Of a stretch of DNA of 64,000 nucleotides, positions 7,349 through 14,488 are shown in pieces. How positions within the stretch are numbered: position 1 is the stretch's first letter; each line of letters starts with the position of its first letter. A program made the translations under genes and the position numbers. Source of the DNA: Alphaproteobacteria bacterium US3C007 (lineage in GTDB: Bacteria; Pseudomonadota; Alphaproteobacteria; Rhodobacterales; Rhodobacteraceae). The notes beneath the pieces are model-generated. The model was not told the DNA's origin. It made no database searches and saw only the letters and a program-made list of their open reading frames with translations. Location: the NCBI GenBank assembly GCA_034423775.1, contig CP139918.1, positions 2,356,001-2,420,000 of the forward strand, written 5' to 3'.

Positions 7349-8479
7349 ATGACGGATCGGTTTTCATATTCGGTTGCGGCAAGCGATGGCAAAGCGCGGA
7401 CGGGAAAAATTTCGACTCCGAGAGGCGAAATCCGCACGCCTGCCTTCATGCCAGTGGGCACGGCGGCCACGGTGAAGGCGATGATGCCGGAAAGCGTGGC
7501 GGCAACGGGGGCAGATATTCTGCTTGGCAATACCTATCATTTGATGCTGCGGCCGGGGGCCGAGCGGGTGGATGCTTTGGGGGGCTTGCACAATTTTATG
7601 AATTGGCAGCGCCCAATTCTTACCGATAGTGGCGGGTTTCAAGTGATGTCTTTGGCTGGTTTGCGCAAACTGACTGAGCGGGGCGTTACCTTCAAATCGC
7701 ATGTTGATGGATCCAAGCACGAGATTACTCCTGAACGCTCGATGGATATCCAACGCCTTTTGGGCAGCGATATTGTGATGTGTTTTGATGAATGCACGCC
7801 CTTTCCTGCGGACGAGAAAACCGCCTTAGACAGCATGCAATTGTCGATGCGCTGGGCGGCGCGTTCCAAAGAGGCATTCGGGGATCGCCCGGGGCATGCT
7901 TTATTTGGTATCCAGCAGGGCAGCGTGTTCCCTGAGCAGCGTGCAGAAAGCGCCGAAGCTTTAAAGGCCATTGGGTTTGATGGCTATGCGGTTGGCGGGC
8001 TCGCGGTTGGCGAAGGTCAAGAGGCGATGTTCTCGGTGCTTGATTATGCCCCTGATATGTTGCCGCAGGATAAGCCGCGCTATCTGATGGGGGTCGGCAA
8101 ACCGGATGATATTGTGGGCGCGGTGAAACGGGGCATCGATATGATGGATTGCGTATTGCCCTCGCGCTCAGGGCGCACGGGGCAAGCTTTTACCCGCCAA
8201 GGCGTGGTGAATATCAAAAACGCCCGTCATCAGGACGATCCGCGCCCGCTTGACAGCGCCTGCAGTTGCCCGGCCTGCAAGAATTACTCGCGGGCGTATC
8301 TTCATCATGTTTTTCGTTCGCAAGAAATGATTTCGGGGATGCTGCTCACCTGGCATAATCTGCAATATTATCAGGATTTGATGGCCGATATGCGTGCGGC
8401 TATTGCGGCTGGTCGTTTTGCGAGTTTTGAAGCCGAGTTCCATGCTCAGAGGGCGGCAGGAGATATTGCCCCTTTGTAA
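7349..8479 (+). CDS. tgt: Queuine tRNA-ribosyltransferase (tRNA-guanine transglycosylase)
   Basis: Exchanges guanine 34 for preQ1 in tRNAs with GUN anticodons, the committing step of queuosine formation on tRNA. The 376 residues form the TIM barrel of the bacterial enzyme. Visible motifs are LGNTYHL (residues 59-65), [14 protein letters not shown] with the catalytic Asp at 93, [19 protein letters not shown] and [15 protein letters not shown]. The zinc site reads [16 protein letters not shown] near the C-terminus. The ATG at 7349 gives the usual MTDRFSYSV beginning. No other queuosine genes are adjacent. Confidence 0.97.
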
Positions 8480-8509: not shown

Positions 8510-9358
8510 TTAAGCGTGCGCGGTTACGATATAAACCGTAGCGCCATAAGAAATTTTGCCGTCTTTCTGGCGCGCCGCGGATTGCGCCAGCATCGAGCGG
8601 AAGACTTCAGCGCGCGCAGCCTCCCCCAATTCGGCCGCAGTCATAATTCGCGTGGCAAAGCCGATCTGCATCAGCAGCTTGGCATCTTCTTCGGGGCTGT
8701 CTTTAGTGGTCACTTCTGTGGGTGTTTTTGCGATCTCAACCTGCTGAAAACTGGCCTCTTCAAGCAGGCCGCGCAGATAAGCAGCATCGCTGAACGCCAA
8801 AGGCCCAGGCGCGCGACCTGGGGCGATGAAAGGCTGATCTGTATGTTGCAACACGGCTTGCAATGGCGCGTAAAAAAATTCGTTTTCCTCCAAAGGTGCC
8901 CAGCAAACAAAGCGTAACCTGCCTGCAACGCGCAGTGCGGATTTGATGTTTTGAAAGGCTTTCACCGGGTTTTCGAAGAACATAACGCCAAATCGTGAGA
9001 TCACCGTATCAAGTTTTTGCACCGCAAAGCGATGCGCCTGCGCATCGGCCAAGACAAAGTTGATGTTCTTATGCTCCGCGCATTTCTGCGCGGCTAAATC
9101 TAAAAGCGGTTTTGAAATATCCAAGCCGGTAATCTGCACGCTTGGCGGTGCGCCTTTTGCAAGCGCAAGCGTGGTGGTGCCGCTGCCGCAGCCGATATCA
9201 AGAATCTTGCTGGATGGGTGAAGATCCAAATTTTCAAGAAGCAATTGACTGATGGTTTCCAGCCGCTCACTCATCAAACGGTCATTTTCCACCCAAGACA
9301 GGCCAGACGCTTCGTTCCAGAATTTCCCCTGATCTGGGTTTTCGCCAAAATCCGCCAT
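8510..9358 (-). CDS. Class I SAM-dependent methyltransferase, substrate unknown
   Basis: A 282-residue soluble protein with a Rossmann methyltransferase fold. Motif I is LDIGCGSG (residues 53-60), followed by ITGLDISKPLL, FVLADAQAHRF and the post-motif SRFGVMFFENPVKAFQNI. This ordering resembles small-molecule methyltransferases of the UbiE/Methyltransf_11/25 type. The C-terminal part (residues about 170-282) carries no motif that names a substrate. It is convergent with tgt, and the rhodanese operon ends 64 bp upstream of its start. It could be a separate transcript or the tail of that operon. Confidence 0.8.
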   Translation of the reverse strand: MADFGENPDQGKFWNEASGLSWVENDRLMSERLETISQLLLENLDLHPSSKILDIGCGSGTTTLALAKGAPPSVQITGLDISKPLLDLAAQKCAEHKNINFVLADAQAHRFAVQKLDTVISRFGVMFFENPVKAFQNIKSALRVAGRLRFVCWAPLEENEFFYAPLQAVLQHTDQPFIAPGRAPGPLAFSDAAYLRGLLEEASFQQVEIAKTPTEVTTKDSPEEDAKLLMQIGFATRIMTAAELGEAARAEVFRSMLAQSAARQKDGKISYGATVYIVTAHA

Positions 9359-9422
9359 TTACACGGCCTCGCTTTCGCTATGATTACTCTGGTTTACTAT
9401 AAGGCAGGCGCGGGGTGGCGCA

Positions 9423-9827
9423 TTACTTCTTTTCCACCGGCTCTATTGGCGCAGCGGCTTTTTGCCAGGCCGTGAAACCCCCAGCAATATGTGTGACTGG
9501 AGATAAGCCCATTTGCTGCGCGACCTGTGCGCTTAAGGCTGACCGCCAAGCGCTGGCACAATAAAACACATAGGTTTTATCTTGGTTGAACAGCTCTTTA
9601 TGGTAGGGGCTTTCTGGATCAATCCAGAACTCCAACATCCCGCGCGGGCAAGAAAAAGCATTTGGTATTTTTCCCGAGCGCTGCAGCTCGCGAATATCTC
9701 GTAAATCGATGAAGACGTGATCTTGGCTGTTTAATAGGCCGGCGGCCTCTTCAACGGATATACTGGGCACGACAGCGTTGGCTTCTGCGAGCAATTTTTT
9801 GATACCTTTGGTTATTTTTTGCGCCAT
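9423..9827 (-). CDS. Rhodanese-like sulfurtransferase
   Basis: A single-domain rhodanese of 134 residues. The fold is recognisable from ISVEEAAGLLNSQDHVFIDLRDIRE, the active-site loop CASAWRSA with a catalytic cysteine, and the closing HIAGGFTAWQKAAAP. Rhodaneses carry sulfur as a cysteine persulfide and are found in sulfide and thiosulfate handling. The ATG at 9827 (after TAGGAATTTAACC) is preferred to an upstream in-frame start at 9860, which would overlap the previous gene. Last gene of the four-gene operon, two bases after the CoA-binding protein gene. In this setting it probably takes over sulfide or persulfide sulfur (inference). Confidence 0.88.
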   Translation of the reverse strand: MAQKITKGIKKLLAEANAVVPSISVEEAAGLLNSQDHVFIDLRDIRELQRSGKIPNAFSCPRGMLEFWIDPESPYHKELFNQDKTYVFYCASAWRSALSAQVAQQMGLSPVTHIAGGFTAWQKAAAPIEPVEKK

Positions 9828-9829
9828 GG

Positions 9830-10288
9830 TTAAATTCCTAAATGCAGTTTGGGTTTCCAAAAGGGCCGGAAAAGTTCTATTTTTGGGCAGCGGTTCATTA
9901 CCACTTTCATCCCCGCCTCTTCGGCAAGTCGCGCGGCGTCATCATTGCGGACACCGATTTGTCCCCAAAGCACTTTGGCCTTGATGGCAATTGCTTCGCG
10001 GGCGATTCCCAATAAATCCTCGGGGCGACGAAACACTTCCACCATATCCACAGGGCGGTCAATTGCATCCAGTGATGGGTAAACTTTTAATCCGCGGATT
10101 TCTTCCAAACCGGGGCGCGGGTTGATGGGGATCATATCATAGCCGGTTTCGCTGAGCACCCTTAAGACGCCATAGCTGAACTTGGTTTTATCGGGGCTGG
10201 CTCCGACCATAGCGATGGTTTTAACCGAGGATAGGATGTCATTTAAATACGCATCCGGATAAGGGGCATCGTGGTCCATATAGGTCAT
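9830..10288 (-). CDS. CoA-binding domain protein (YccU-like)
   Basis: A stand-alone CoA-binding Rossmann domain of 152 residues. Typical segments are IAMVGASPDKTKFSYGVLRVL, YDMIPINPRPGLEEIRGLKVY, DMVEVFRRPEDLLGIAREAI and LWGQIGVRNDDAARLAEEAG, ending in VMNRCPKIELFRP. The family is related to the CoA-binding half of succinyl-CoA ligases but has no ligase domain; its biochemical role is poorly known. Its ATG overlaps the ferredoxin stop (ATGA) and GGAGAAAGCTCC precedes it, so translation is probably coupled to the upstream genes. A conserved cysteine (VMNRCPK) could carry a thiol adduct, but that is speculation. Confidence 0.85.
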   Translation of the reverse strand: MTYMDHDAPYPDAYLNDILSSVKTIAMVGASPDKTKFSYGVLRVLSETGYDMIPINPRPGLEEIRGLKVYPSLDAIDRPVDMVEVFRRPEDLLGIAREAIAIKAKVLWGQIGVRNDDAARLAEEAGMKVVMNRCPKIELFRPFWKPKLHLGI

Positions 10289-10653
10289 GGAGCTTTCTCC
10301 AATTTTGTGGCGATATCGGCTTTCAATTCATGCGGCGCAAGCGGATCCAAGAAGGGGTTGCGATAGAGCTTGTCATGGCTTTCAACGCCAATTTCCAACG
10401 TGCAATCGCTGAGCGGGCGGGCGACGCATAAAATGACATAGCCATCCGTAATCTGGCGATTGTTCAGCGCCACTTGCGGCGCTTGATTCACGCGGCCATC
10501 GGTAAGCTTAGCCGCGCAGGTGATGCAACCGCCATATTTACAGCCATAAGGCAAATCAACGCCTTGGTCGCGCAGGCTGTCTAGCAGCGGTTTGCGATGA
10601 TCCACCTCATAGGTGGCGCCATCGCGGTTTGCCAACGTGATTTTATGCATCAT
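10285..10653 (-). CDS. 2Fe-2S plant-type ferredoxin
   Basis: A small electron carrier of 122 residues. The cluster-binding loop is CKYGGCITCAAK, followed by a distal cysteine in YVILCVARPLSDCTLEI, which is the plant-type [2Fe-2S] pattern. It resembles the ferredoxin domain of ring-hydroxylating oxygenase reductases but stands alone, without FAD or NAD domains. The ATG at 10653 overlaps the stop of the SBP56 gene (ATGA). The longer frame to 10704 would lie inside that gene. It is probably the electron partner of an oxidoreductase made from this operon. Confidence 0.88.
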   Translation of the reverse strand: MMHKITLANRDGATYEVDHRKPLLDSLRDQGVDLPYGCKYGGCITCAAKLTDGRVNQAPQVALNNRQITDGYVILCVARPLSDCTLEIGVESHDKLYRNPFLDPLAPHELKADIATKLEKAP

Positions 10654-11999
10654 AGCCAGATATCGCTTGTGCAATCGCCACCGGGATAGCGGGTTTCGTG
10701 GCACCGGCTTGGGCCGTTGGGCTCTTTGCCAAAATCCACCACGAAATTCGGGTCAATTTCCATGCCGCCATTTTCAGTGTCGCAATTCACCATCAACATA
10801 CAGCCACCATTGGTTCGGATTTCTGGATAAAACTGATTGTCCCACGTACTGAACAAAGAGGTGGTGACATAGAGCCGCTTACCATCCAGGCTGAGCTGAA
10901 TCATTTGCGGCCCGCCGGTGACTTTTACGCCGTTCACCTCTGGTGCTTTGCCCAGCAAGCCCCCCATCCACACCTGGCCGGTCAGTTTTGCATTGTGTGG
11001 ATCGCTGATGTCATATTGGCGTATATCGCCATGCAACCAATTGCACAGGTAGAGATATTTATCATCCATCGATAAAAGAATTACCGAAATCACCCCGGGT
11101 ACTGGGATCGGCCATTCCGGATGAGGTTCATTTTCAACATCGACAATTTTTTCCCATTGCCACTCGTCGTTTTGATCTTTCCACCAATGAATGATGTTTG
11201 CGCTGAGCGCGGCGCCGACAAAGCCATGCGAACTGTCCGGATCGTGATGAAAACGCACTTCCAATGGGATCAATCCATCTTCACCCAAATACATGCTTTT
11301 GATCGGCTCTTTCTTTTCAAAATCCCAAAAATGGATTTCGCGGCCATATTTAAGATGCCCCACTTCTTCCAGATCAAAACCGGGCATAAAGGTATTGGGC
11401 GCACCCCATTCAGAGCTTACCATCACGTTGTGGCGCGGTTGATACCAAAAATCATAGCCGAATTTGATATCGCCCATTGAGTTTTCCCAACGTCCAACGA
11501 TTTCGAAGTCTTTATTGAGGTGTAAATAGCCCCCTGGTGCGTTGCCTTGCGCATCGCCCAGCATTGAAATGATAATTTCCGAACCCAAGCAATGGATTGT
11601 ATGCGGTGCGCTGAGATTGGTTTTGGCTTTGATATCGGCCCCATCAATCACCTTGAAGAGCGTTGGATTGCGCGGGTCTGTGGCGCAATCGATGATATGG
11701 ATATTGGAAGAGCGCACGCCGGGCACCAAAAGATATTTACGTTCCATTGAGGCGTCGTCAAAGCAAGAAGAACAGGCATTCCAGCCCATATGGTGCAGTT
11801 CATCGCCAATCCCGGGCACTTCGCAGCGGCTGATCACTTGCGAATAGGTGGGGCTGTCAGGATCATTATCGATTGTCGCCAGATAATCCGGTTTTTGGAT
11901 GCCCGTGCCGGTGTAGATGGCGATTGTGTATAACAGCTTTTCTCGAGGTGCCTGCATCGCTTCGGCAGGGGAGGCATATCCGGGGCCGCAACATTCCAT
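10650..11999 (-). CDS. SBP56 / SELENBP1-type protein, probable methanethiol oxidase
   Basis: A 449-residue member of the selenium-binding protein 56 family. Human SELENBP1 and bacterial MtoX of this family oxidise methanethiol to formaldehyde, hydrogen peroxide and sulfide. Similarity to SELENBP1 runs through the whole chain: ECCGPGYASPAEAM at the start, DELHHMGWNACSSCFDD (Cys76 and Cys79), GYDFWYQPRHNVMVSSEW, GGPQMIQLSLDGKRLYVTTS, NFVVDFGKEPNGP, and the ending YPGGDCTSDIWL. There is no signal peptide, unlike what I recall of the periplasmic Hyphomicrobium MtoX, so it is probably cytosolic. AGGAG sits 6 bp before the ATG. First gene of the operon with ferredoxin, CoA-binding protein and rhodanese; divergent from an iclR gene. 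Activity is inferred. Confidence 0.88.
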   Translation of the reverse strand: MECCGPGYASPAEAMQAPREKLLYTIAIYTGTGIQKPDYLATIDNDPDSPTYSQVISRCEVPGIGDELHHMGWNACSSCFDDASMERKYLLVPGVRSSNIHIIDCATDPRNPTLFKVIDGADIKAKTNLSAPHTIHCLGSEIIISMLGDAQGNAPGGYLHLNKDFEIVGRWENSMGDIKFGYDFWYQPRHNVMVSSEWGAPNTFMPGFDLEEVGHLKYGREIHFWDFEKKEPIKSMYLGEDGLIPLEVRFHHDPDSSHGFVGAALSANIIHWWKDQNDEWQWEKIVDVENEPHPEWPIPVPGVISVILLSMDDKYLYLCNWLHGDIRQYDISDPHNAKLTGQVWMGGLLGKAPEVNGVKVTGGPQMIQLSLDGKRLYVTTSLFSTWDNQFYPEIRTNGGCMLMVNCDTENGGMEIDPNFVVDFGKEPNGPSRCHETRYPGGDCTSDIWL

Positions 12000-12057
12000 T
12001 TTATTCTCCTAACCGATTCGAGGTGCTTGACTTTTCGCAAGCAATTCTTATTACATG

Positions 12058-12069
12058 AGACAAATGTCT
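12058..12069. promoter_or_regulatory. Inverted repeat between SBP56 operon and iclR, candidate operator
   Basis: AGACA-AA-TGTCT is a perfect 5-bp inverted repeat in the 85-bp divergent intergenic region, and TACA/TGTA arms at 12052-12055 and 12069-12072 give a wider partial symmetry. It lies 16 bp before the iclR start. IclR-type regulators usually bind such short palindromes in front of their own gene and a divergent target. Binding is not shown by the sequence. Confidence 0.35.
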
Positions 12070-12084
12070 GTAAAGTGAGAAATT

Positions 12085-12837
12085 ATGCATTTGGCGCGCG
12101 TGATGAAAGTATTGGAGGCTGTGGCCACGGCGGGCCGGCCAATCACGGCCTCAGAAGTGCAGCAATTGACCGATCTGCCGCGCCCGACCTGCTATCGTTT
12201 GTTGCAATCAATGCAGGTGGAGCAATTGCTGGATGAGGTGTCTTCAGGGCGGTTCATCGTTGGAGAAAGCTTGGTGCGCTTGGCGATTTTGGGGCAAACA
12301 GATGTGGATATTTGCCGCAGCGCCGCGCCAACATTGCAGCGCGCGGCAGATGATTTGGGCGAGGCGGTTTTTTTATCGCGCTTTCGCAATACGGGCGTTG
12401 AAATTATCCACGTAGAAGTGCCGGGCGATGCAAAGCGCTCATTCGTGCATCCTGGGCTCGGATTTCGCCCGATGCATGCTTGTTCATGCTCAAAAGTCAT
12501 CGCAGCCTTTGCGGATGATCCGTTTCGACAAGAGATTTTATCTGGCCCGATGCGGTCCTTTACGGAATATACGCGCTGTGATCCGCAAAGCCTATCGCGC
12601 GAGTTTGATCAGATCCTTAGCAGCGGCTATGCCGAATGCGTGCAAGAAATCGAACTGGGTGTGTCGTCGGTTGCTGCACCGGTGCAAATCGGATCGGTCG
12701 GAGCGCTTTACAGCATTGGCGCCACCGGGCCGGTGCGCCGCTTCACCAAAGAACGCCGTGCTCAAATCGGAGCGCAGCTTTGCCTGATGGCGCAGAAAAT
12801 GGGCCATTCTTTACAGGTTGCGGGGGCTGCCGCCTAG
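12085..12837 (+). CDS. IclR-family transcriptional regulator
   Basis: A 250-residue regulator. The N-terminal winged helix-turn-helix reads VMKVLEAVATAGRPITASEVQQLTD with the recognition segment LPRPTCYRLLQSM (residues about 8-45). The effector domain follows, with FRPMHACSCSKVIAAFADD, GYAECVQEIELGVSSVAAPV and a GALYSIGATGPVRRF segment in the usual order. IclR proteins sense small acids or aromatics and act as repressors or activators. It is divergent from the SBP56 operon with 85 bp between the starts, so that operon is the likely target. The start was set at the first ATG, preceded by GTGAG. Confidence 0.9.
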   Translation: MHLARVMKVLEAVATAGRPITASEVQQLTDLPRPTCYRLLQSMQVEQLLDEVSSGRFIVGESLVRLAILGQTDVDICRSAAPTLQRAADDLGEAVFLSRFRNTGVEIIHVEVPGDAKRSFVHPGLGFRPMHACSCSKVIAAFADDPFRQEILSGPMRSFTEYTRCDPQSLSREFDQILSSGYAECVQEIELGVSSVAAPVQIGSVGALYSIGATGPVRRFTKERRAQIGAQLCLMAQKMGHSLQVAGAAA

Positions 12838-12956
12838 CGGGCCATGTTTGGATGAAAATTGGCAAAAGAGGTCGATTTTTGTGAACCGCAGCGGATCTCT
12901 AAATATCGCAAAGTTTTGGCCGTATATAAGGTGTTGAAGGCGATCAGGGGATCACA

Positions 12957-13181
12957 ATGCAGCACCAAGAGGTTCATATTCCTAGTTTCATGCGTAGCTT
13001 TTTGGGTGATGTAAACACCTATTACGAGGCTTTGCCCGAAACGTTTCAGAGCGAATTAAAAAGCTATATGTATCATATTGCTTGGGCGGTGAATGAGGAT
13101 CTGCCGATCGACGATCCAGATGATAAATTTGCTTTCATCAAAGACCGCTTTGATGCGGCGCGCAGGCGGCTGATGAACTAA
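12957..13181 (+). CDS. Small hypothetical protein, 74 residues
   Basis: I do not recognise a family. The frame is preceded by AGGGGATCACA at suitable spacing and has codon use like its neighbours. The product is soluble and acidic in its second half (NEDLPIDDPDDKF) and ends in a basic helix (DRFDAARRRLMN). Sequence such as YYEALPETFQSELKSYMYHIAWAV suggests amphipathic helices. It follows iclR by 119 bp and is convergent with the MFS gene. It may be a lineage-specific small protein. Confidence 0.6.
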   Translation: MQHQEVHIPSFMRSFLGDVNTYYEALPETFQSELKSYMYHIAWAVNEDLPIDDPDDKFAFIKDRFDAARRRLMN

Positions 13182-13196
13182 GCTTTTTCGGTTTGC

Positions 13197-14369
13197 CTAA
13201 GCGGCTGCGGCTTTGGTTTTTGGCAGCGTGAGCACCAAAATCAATCCCAAAGCCATCAGAACGGCCAAGCCTAAAAAGGCGCTGTCATAACTTCCTGAAT
13301 AATCAAACACCATGCCGGCAAGTATCGGCCCAATGGCGCCCCCGATCGTACCAAAAAACAAAATAATGCCAAACAGCGCCCCATGCGATTGCATCCCAAA
13401 ATAATCCGCAACGGTGGGGGAAACGACGGAAAAAAAACCGCCATGGCCAAAACCGTAAAGCGCCATAAAAACGAATAAAGCGGTATGATTGTCCCATAAA
13501 AGCAAGGCGCCAAGACTGATTAAAATGGGGATAAAGCAGGCGCTATAGGCCGCTTGGCTGCCCAAGCGATCTTGGAAATACCCCGTTGCCAGCCGGCCGG
13601 CCATGCTGGCTGCGCCAATCACAGTTAGCAACAGGGCCGCGTGCGCGCCCGTCATCCCCAAATCTATGCCATAAACCGCAATATGTGTTGGGATTGTCAT
13701 CAAGGTGGGAAAAAATAAAAATTGTATCAGACAAAGCTTTTTAAACGTCAAACTGCGTTTGGCGTTTTGAAACGAGGCAGTTGTAAGCTCGGCTTGCGCG
13801 GCTGTCGGCTGCGCGTTTTGCGGGCGCGACATTAACATGGCGGCTGCCAGAAGGGTGATCGCTGCCAACAGGCCTAAAATCACCAAACTGCTGCGCCAAC
13901 CATAGCTAAGGATCAAAAAAGCAGTGATCGGGGGCAAGATCATTTGCCCCGCGGCGGTTCCCAGTTTTACCAAACCAGTGATGAAACCGCGCCCGTTTGG
14001 AAACCAACGCGCCACGGTTGAGAGGGTTACAACATCATGGGTGCCCATTCCCAAGCCAATAAAGATGACGAAGATCATGAGCAATTGCCACGGCTGCGTG
14101 ATCTGGGACATTAAAATAAATCCAAGCCCATACATCAGCCCGGTAAAGCCTAAAACCAGCCGAGGGCCATAGCGATCAGAGAGGCGCCCCGCGATAATCG
14201 CCAACACCCCCATGACGAAAAATGCCAATGCCGAGCAGCTTGACAGCAGCGTCCGTGACCATCCGAATTCCGTTTCAAACGCGCTGAAAAACACCCCGTA
14301 AGAAAACAAAAAACCGATTACGATAAATTGGGTTAAGCACGCCCCGGCAAACACTTTATAGCGTGTCAC
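13197..14369 (-). CDS. MFS transporter, monocarboxylate/OFA-like
   Basis: A 12-helix major facilitator of about 390 residues. The loop 2-3 motif appears as GRLSDRYGPRLVLG, and the second half has the related YFQDRLGSQAAY. Closely spaced hydrophobic helices include FLFSYGVFFSAF near the start and FIGLGMGTHDVVTLSTVARWF, a layout seen in oxalate/formate and monocarboxylate MFS carriers. The GTG at 14369 is chosen because AAGGAC lies 6 bp upstream; an earlier TTG at 14402 lacks a ribosome site. The substrate cannot be read from the sequence. The MORN-protein gene is 119 bp upstream on the same strand. Confidence 0.82.
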   Translation of the reverse strand: MTRYKVFAGACLTQFIVIGFLFSYGVFFSAFETEFGWSRTLLSSCSALAFFVMGVLAIIAGRLSDRYGPRLVLGFTGLMYGLGFILMSQITQPWQLLMIFVIFIGLGMGTHDVVTLSTVARWFPNGRGFITGLVKLGTAAGQMILPPITAFLILSYGWRSSLVILGLLAAITLLAAAMLMSRPQNAQPTAAQAELTTASFQNAKRSLTFKKLCLIQFLFFPTLMTIPTHIAVYGIDLGMTGAHAALLLTVIGAASMAGRLATGYFQDRLGSQAAYSACFIPILISLGALLLWDNHTALFVFMALYGFGHGGFFSVVSPTVADYFGMQSHGALFGIILFFGTIGGAIGPILAGMVFDYSGSYDSAFLGLAVLMALGLILVLTLPKTKAAAA

Positions 14370-14488
14370 ATTTAGTCCTTTTTTCAATCTGGCTTGGCGC
14401 AAGCAAACGGCATTTGAGGCCCCGTTTGAGGCCTAGTTCACTAACCGGATGCACAGGATAGCCTGGAGTGCCAGCTTTGGTAAAGCGC

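Follow-up and report, generated by a model that had tools for sequence, protein, structure and literature searches.

A candidate cytosolic methanethiol-degrading operon linking an SBP56 protein to a ferredoxin, a CoA-binding protein and a rhodanese in a Rhodobacteraceae genome

A stretch of 64,000 nucleotides from Alphaproteobacteria bacterium US3C007 (Rhodobacteraceae; contig CP139918.1, positions 2,356,001 to 2,420,000), hereafter the window, carries on its minus strand a four-gene operon with a putative role in methanethiol degradation. All coordinates below are positions within the window, not in the genome, unless a locus is named. The operon begins with an SBP56/SELENBP1-type protein (449 amino acids, 10650-11999(-); PF05694, 688.6 bits against a cut-off of 34), followed by a plant-type [2Fe-2S] ferredoxin (122 amino acids, 10285-10653(-); PF00111 and TIGR02008), a small coenzyme A (CoA)-binding protein of the CoA_binding_2 type (152 amino acids, 9830-10288(-); PF13380, 132.8 bits) and a single-domain rhodanese (134 amino acids, 9423-9827(-); PF00581, 67.2 bits), with its loop CASAWRS where the active site usually lies. 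The SBP56/ferredoxin and ferredoxin/CoA-binding junctions are ATGA overlaps, the ferredoxin ATG at 10653 overlapping the SBP56 stop, and the rhodanese ATG (9827) lies 2 bp after the CoA-binding stop. A divergent gene for an IclR-family regulator (250 amino acids, 12085-12837(+); PF09339 and PF01614) is separated from SBP56 by 85 bp, which contain the inverted repeat AGACAAATGTCT (plus strand, 12058-12069), a candidate IclR operator. These five genes, the two overlaps and the 2-bp gap had been described in a reading made from the letters alone (the sequence-only reading) and were confirmed, Pfam agreeing with all of the gene names. The ferredoxin scored 81.4 bits on the NCBIfam plant-type model, barely above the cut-off of 81.15. 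The nearest solved structures are 2duw and 1iuk for the CoA-binding protein and 2hhg for the rhodanese.

Genome contigs of GTDB were scanned with SBP56, and the best 80 of at least 590 related stretches form the 80 loci discussed here; with SBP56 proteins 83-100% identical they are the closest relatives, and are silent on distant ones. Most are alphaproteobacterial, including two from SAR116 (L104 and L109), while six records are labelled as gammaproteobacterial groups and one as Chloroflexi. All 80 loci have a ferredoxin gene no more than 700 bp from SBP56, and 79/80 also a CoA-binding gene; the exception, L063, is cut short by the end of its contig, which falls within the ferredoxin gene. 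In 55 loci the SBP56 stop codon forms an ATGA that is in frame with the following gene, the order is swapped to SBP56–CoA-binding–ferredoxin in five, and the ferredoxin motif C-x4-C-x2-C is kept in 79. The ATGA junctions and these two linkages place the coupling of the genes beyond chance. By contrast, a rhodanese occurs within 1.7 kb of SBP56 in only 26/80 loci. The expectation of a conserved gene order thus held for the SBP56/ferredoxin/CoA-binding core, hereafter the triad, and failed for the rhodanese, which was rejected as a core member and is optional. An IclR gene is found within 1 kb of SBP56 in 26/80 loci. In two loci, L090 (8160-8669) and L107 (8174-8689), the open frame of the rhodanese extends upstream past its usual start and encodes similar residues, maybe an extra small domain or open reading frame (ORF).

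The association was also apparent in whole genomes. Among 198 genomes of the family, 68 contain an SBP56 match of any kind, and a ferredoxin of the operon type (matches taken at E <= 1e-20) was found at 29 places in 27 genomes. By coordinates, all 29 places adjoin an SBP56 at least 65% identical, or a fragment of one; G037 and G184 have only fragments of an operon-type SBP56, without such a ferredoxin. In a set of 398 genomes of the phylum, an operon-type SBP56 occurs in five and the ferredoxin in the same five, adjacent to it (the window's own genome and G186 are included in both sets). A tree was built from 59 SBP56 proteins, with an arbitrary root; in it, the rows linked to a ferredoxin fall into a single group with 45 members (support 100/98, L023 included), and the deep split from the group of SBP56 paralogues joins long branches. 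Nested within the ferredoxin group, L024, L025 and L118 cluster together with a ferredoxin and no CoA-binding gene seen, so the ferredoxin may have become linked to SBP56 before the CoA-binding protein did; the wider stretches around L024 and L025 (L135 and L136) also show no CoA-binding gene.

Rhodobacteraceae enzymes are reported to split into cluster 1, with three cysteines, and cluster 2, with one (PMC10936201). Cys76, Cys137 and Cys443 of the window SBP56 match all three cluster 1 motifs (GWNACS, HTV/IHC and GGDCS/T). The putative copper and active-site residues H69, H70, H133, H136, D183 and E247 are the counterparts of all six residues (H73, H74, H137, H140, D189 and E252) on which the activity of SELENBP1 reportedly depends (PMC10362175), a correspondence drawn by motif and offset rather than by alignment to the human sequence. 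An alignment with the Sulfolobus-type structure 2ece shares the HH, HTxHC, YDFW and LE motifs, with Ala in place of Cys443. Read by eye, the protein starts MECCGPGYASPAEAM with no hydrophobic leader, and no signal peptide of the kind expected for MtoX is evident in its N-terminus MECCGPGYASPAEAMQAPREKL, also judged by eye, in agreement with the earlier statement that it lacks one.

The spacing of the three cysteines distinguishes two subfamilies: it is 61/306 in 94 proteins of the ferredoxin group and 60-61/305-311 in 8 more, and 64-65/314-316 in 7 proteins of the paralogue group (9 entries were motif-less or fragments, and some organisms were counted twice, e.g. L007 and L077). Because the reported cysteines of RdMTO from R. 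denitrificans (WP_011568565.1; 82/143/448) give 61/305 and the spacing of RlMTO is 64/316 (PMC10936201), RdMTO is probably of the ferredoxin-group type and RlMTO of the paralogue type, which would place one tested enzyme in each subfamily. Judging from motifs and spacing, the window protein therefore appears to belong to a type that includes tested methanethiol oxidases, as had been proposed. The accompanying claim that SBP56 homologues release sulfide and H2O2 is disputed for Rhodobacteraceae enzymes, since three tested Rhodobacteraceae enzymes are reported to have yielded sulfane sulfur and no H2O2 (PMC10936201), a product that would suit a rhodanese better than free sulfide.

In the direction of SBP56, the candidate operator reads AGACATTTGTCT. 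At least nine of its ten positions are kept in 14 of the 16 regions that separate SBP56 from an IclR at least 55% identical to that of the window, and in none of the 22 with a more distant IclR; after removal of near-identical upstream DNA the counts are 13/15 versus 0/20, with L001, L033 and L034 still the window or near copies of it. The two misses (L092 and L111) match at 8/10 positions, and in L056 the site is near the IclR gene, at a distance of 600 bp from SBP56. First-order resampling of the close-IclR group gave an expectation of 0.003 per locus. This conservation with the close IclR type bears out the earlier pairing of the IclR gene with a repeat at 12058-12069, and the repeat is a probable IclR operator. 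In Ruegeria pomeroyi, methanethiol is reported to induce mtoX (about 14-fold) and also an IclR gene next to it (PMC5739008), which by analogy suggests the inducer class of the window IclR. A genome-wide operator regulon is not supported, the pattern AGACANNTGTCT having three places in the 3.6-Mb genome versus two for a reversed control. Since only one of the three has the conserved core, the window IclR probably acts at this operon only.

The same genome encodes SBP56 paralogues in two near-identical modules, L125 (G000:C1:826000-842000) and L126 (G000:C1:2556000-2572000). Like the window protein, these paralogues have the three cysteines and an adjacent IclR gene (51% identical to the window IclR). 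They are 43% identical to the window SBP56, and the ferredoxin and the CoA-binding protein are replaced by a membrane protein, TM227, by FrmA, by a Blh-like metallo-beta-lactamase (MBL) and by a pyridine nucleotide-disulphide oxidoreductase that we call SQR-like from resemblance, not from a model match. The window operator was not found by the L125 module (best 6/10). With FrmA and a persulfide enzyme next to SBP56, the module has a gene for each of the two products that methanethiol should yield, and it is probably a route from methanethiol to sulfite and formaldehyde. TM227 (L125 6873-7556(-) and homologues) has many hydrophobic stretches and no Pfam match; it adjoins 10 of the 12 paralogue-type SBP56 rows in the tree, L097 being cut by its end, and is a possible SBP56 partner.

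Neighbouring genes in other genomes were counted within 6 kb of the triad in the 80 loci, many of which have cut flanks, with DmdA-like and FrmA proteins taken at 60% identity or more. DmdA-like GcvT proteins are present in 8 loci, Blh-like MBL proteins, which resemble persulfide dioxygenases (PDO), in 5, enoyl-CoA hydratase in 9, acyl-CoA synthetase in 6 and FrmA in 2; an SQR-like gene was found in 0/80 within this distance. The fullest case is L117, on plasmid pP30_b of Phaeobacter inhibens, in which an IclR gene stands beside SBP56, a 2Fe-2S protein, a CoA-binding protein, a rhodanese, an MBL hydrolase, enoyl-CoA hydratase, acyl-CoA synthetase and GcvT. This plasmid, with its eight-gene set from SBP56 to the DmdA-like gene, is typed as conjugative, and the pathway may therefore be transferable between roseobacters. 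Cultured carriers of the triad include Pseudohalocynthiibacter aestuariivivens and Phaeobacter inhibens P30. A DmdA-like gene is also close to the triad in two further genomes, G123 and G453 (L127). In the window itself, a class I methyltransferase gene follows the operon (Pfam), and no Blh-like MBL gene lies next to it.

FrmA adjoins a ferredoxin-linked SBP56 in L083, L097, L137 and L138, and the FrmA proteins of L083 and L125 pass their model. Within the part of the ferredoxin group lacking the CoA-binding gene, L137 (G136) has, after SBP56 and ferredoxin, a protein related to the PF09948 copper chaperone, and FrmA (88%), PDO-like (71%) and SQR-like (70%) genes that run divergently; L138 has a divergent FrmA (79%), and none of these genes was seen in L135 and L136. 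The copper chaperone itself occurs in Paracoccus seriniphilus (L118, 7749-8552), right after SBP56 and ferredoxin, and the L137 protein (7755-8432(-)), 34% identical to it, occupies the same place. A chaperone at this position fits a copper enzyme.

Methanethiol derived from dimethylsulfoniopropionate (DMSP) is a large marine sulfur flux. DmdA, the DMSP demethylase, scored over its cut-off in 84/198 family genomes, and the proposed co-occurrence of the triad with dmdA was upheld: DmdA is present in 22/27 triad genomes versus 62/171 others (Fisher p 1.3e-5, kinship and habitat ignored). It is present in 35/45 genomes with the paralogue type versus 49/153, and in 36/135 genomes with neither type. 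The window's own genome has two DmdA genes over the cut-off (668 and 538 bits) and one DmdA-like gene. The DMSP link is thus one of co-occurrence and of neighbours in other genomes, not of linkage in the window. In SAR116, methanethiol oxidases of the SELENBP1/mtoX type are reported as predicted downstream of DMSP demethylation in most members (PMC12262181). At G066:C1:189548-192082, a DmdA gene over the cut-off is followed, after about 90 bp, by a paralogue-type SBP56 in the same orientation. The ORFs preceding the best dmdA of the window's genome (L123, 6083-8753) resemble DUF2182/PpoB2 and DUF1326 copper-related proteins, a resemblance seen by eye and through weak similarity to L118.

Taken together, we consider it probable, at about two chances in three, that this is a cytosolic methanethiol-degrading operon in which the sulfur is passed on as sulfane sulfur by way of the rhodanese. 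In the scheme that we infer, methanethiol would arise from DMSP, mainly via dmdA-encoded demethylation, and SBP56, with its copper site and Cys443, would convert it to formaldehyde and protein-bound sulfane sulfur. The rhodanese would take up this sulfur and pass it to persulfide-using enzymes, and the formaldehyde would go to a class III formaldehyde dehydrogenase. The ferredoxin would most likely give or remove electrons at the copper/cysteine site of SBP56, and the CoA-binding protein, as a carrier or sensor of a CoA-type thiol, may provide the acceptor for sulfur or an acyl group. IclR, bound at AGACAAATGTCT, would keep the operon repressed in the absence of methanethiol or a related thiol. 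If RdMTO is indeed of the window type, the partners would tune or recycle SBP56 rather than catalyse, because RdMTO turns over after expression in E. coli without them. A tighter scheme, in which SBP56, ferredoxin and CoA-binding protein are one methanethiol-cleaving system of a novel type, the ferredoxin handles electrons and thereby avoids free H2O2, and the CoA-binding protein delivers the sulfane sulfur as a CoA persulfide to the rhodanese, from where it reaches a persulfide dioxygenase, seems to us quite improbable.

Several observations weigh against a methanethiol-degrading operon. In the window, no DmdA-like, PDO-like or FrmA gene adjoins the operon, and the nearest of the three places in the genome that exceed 350 bits on the DmdA model is more than 300 kb away. 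Elsewhere, such genes stand beside the triad in a minority of loci only, and in the Mesorhizobium loci, which have the triad, the stretch examined gave no match to DmdA-like, PDO-like or FrmA proteins. Three DmdA-like neighbours scored 368-379 bits on the DMSP demethylase model, below the cut-off of 410, and their identification as DmdA was rejected; the Blh-like MBL proteins reached 371 and 393 bits against 625 for the Blh model, covering the MBL part only. The co-occurrence with DmdA may stem from habitat and kinship, and is weaker for the triad without the paralogue (13/18 versus 71/180, p 0.011). The partnership also has exceptions: L023, outside the 80 loci and with a close SBP56, has a CoA-binding gene and no ferredoxin alongside (elsewhere in its genome another SBP56 does have one), four genomes have the ferredoxin with no CoA-binding gene seen (L118, L135-L138 partly), and neither gene was seen by the related SBP56 of Rubrobacter (L119) and a haloarchaeon (L120). 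Finally, cysteine spacing is the one ground for assigning RdMTO to the window type, and the biochemistry drawn upon is that of other enzymes, none of it of the window SBP56.

In a rival reading, SBP56 would act on another thiol or methylthio compound, the run of DmdA-like, acyl-CoA synthetase and enoyl-CoA hydratase genes that adjoins it in other genomes degrading a non-DMSP substrate from which the triad frees the sulfur. The sub-threshold DmdA-like neighbours, the Mesorhizobium triads and the 5/27 triad genomes without DmdA over the cut-off are all consistent with this, and SELENBP1 is reported to accept several alkyl thiols, with methanethiol and ethanethiol as the best substrates (PMC10362175). 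We nevertheless regard another substrate as unlikely, given the presence of DmdA in 22 of the 27 triad genomes and the positive tests on methanethiol that, by the spacing argument, apparently cover both SBP56 subfamilies. In addition, the closest solved structure to the DmdA-like neighbour is 3tfh, named as a GcvT-like aminomethyltransferase, which we take to be the DMSP demethylase of Pelagibacter.

That the ferredoxin and CoA-binding genes are merely co-transcribed with SBP56 and do not act jointly with it is, in our judgement, rather improbable. The reported activity of RdMTO produced in E. coli (PMC10936201), apparently an enzyme of the window type by spacing only, and the Rubrobacter and haloarchaeal relatives lacking both genes are compatible with such passive linkage, whereas the linkage of 80/80 and 79/80 across classes, kept through swaps of the gene order, and the ATGA in the next frame at 55/80 loci argue for joint action. 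Very unlikely is a homeostasis set for sulfane sulfur, copper or selenium, in which SBP56 buffers copper or persulfide and its partners serve repair with no carbon-sulfur substrate. The chaperone of L118, its relative in L137 and the membership of the rhodanese in a family of sulfane-sulfur enzymes speak for it, but a copper chaperone also fits a copper enzyme, counterparts of all six activity residues are retained, and FrmA by ferredoxin-linked SBP56 in four loci and in both paralogue modules points to formaldehyde and hence C1 release.

A methanethiol-degrading operon of this kind would bear on earlier observations. R. lacuscaerulensis, which lacks mtoX, seems to convert methanethiol to sulfide along a different route, and some activity, its agent unidentified, is reported to persist in R. 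pomeroyi deprived of mtoX, with other SBP56-family proteins named as candidates (PMC7157515). For candidates of this sort, the operon and the paralogue module supply a genomic context and partners that can be recognised, and the gene set could be a marker for what mtoX surveys would miss. It also touches the open dispute over the products of methanethiol oxidases, sulfide and H2O2 or sulfane sulfur. SBP56 methanethiol oxidases are already known; no title or abstract opening describing an SBP56/ferredoxin/CoA-binding operon was found in a literature search that mostly did not extend to subscription papers. The words ferredoxin and rhodanese are absent from the main texts of PMC10936201 and PMC5739008, as is the word operon from the main text of the former.

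Among known systems, MtoX of Hyphomicrobium and R. pomeroyi shares with the window protein the SBP56 family, the methanethiol/DMSP context and, in Roseobacter, the adjoining IclR gene (PMC5739008). MtoX is, however, predicted to be periplasmic with SCO1 and MauG partners (PMC5739008) and has the motif TCQSPYM (PMC10936201), whereas the window protein is partnered by a ferredoxin, a CoA-binding protein and a rhodanese. No SCO1/SenC or MauG was found by Pfam among the eight window proteins scanned (8510-14402). The identification of the window SBP56 as MtoX was rejected, at 157.2 bits against a cut-off of 650 (NCBIfam NF052453) and with TCQSPYM absent. The view of the sequence-only reading that the arrangement is distinct from mtoX-SCO1-MauG stands. 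The closer likeness is to the cluster 1 methanethiol oxidases RdMTO and RlMTO, which share the cysteines in GWNACS, HTIHC and GGDCT and in which no leader is seen, the cysteine spacing of RdMTO being nearly the same as that of the window protein. Finally, a likeness to the Blh-type rhodanese/persulfide dioxygenase is seen in L077, L085, L107 and L117, where a rhodanese is followed by a Blh-like MBL gene; unlike in the bifunctional Blh, the rhodanese and the MBL are encoded there by two separate genes.

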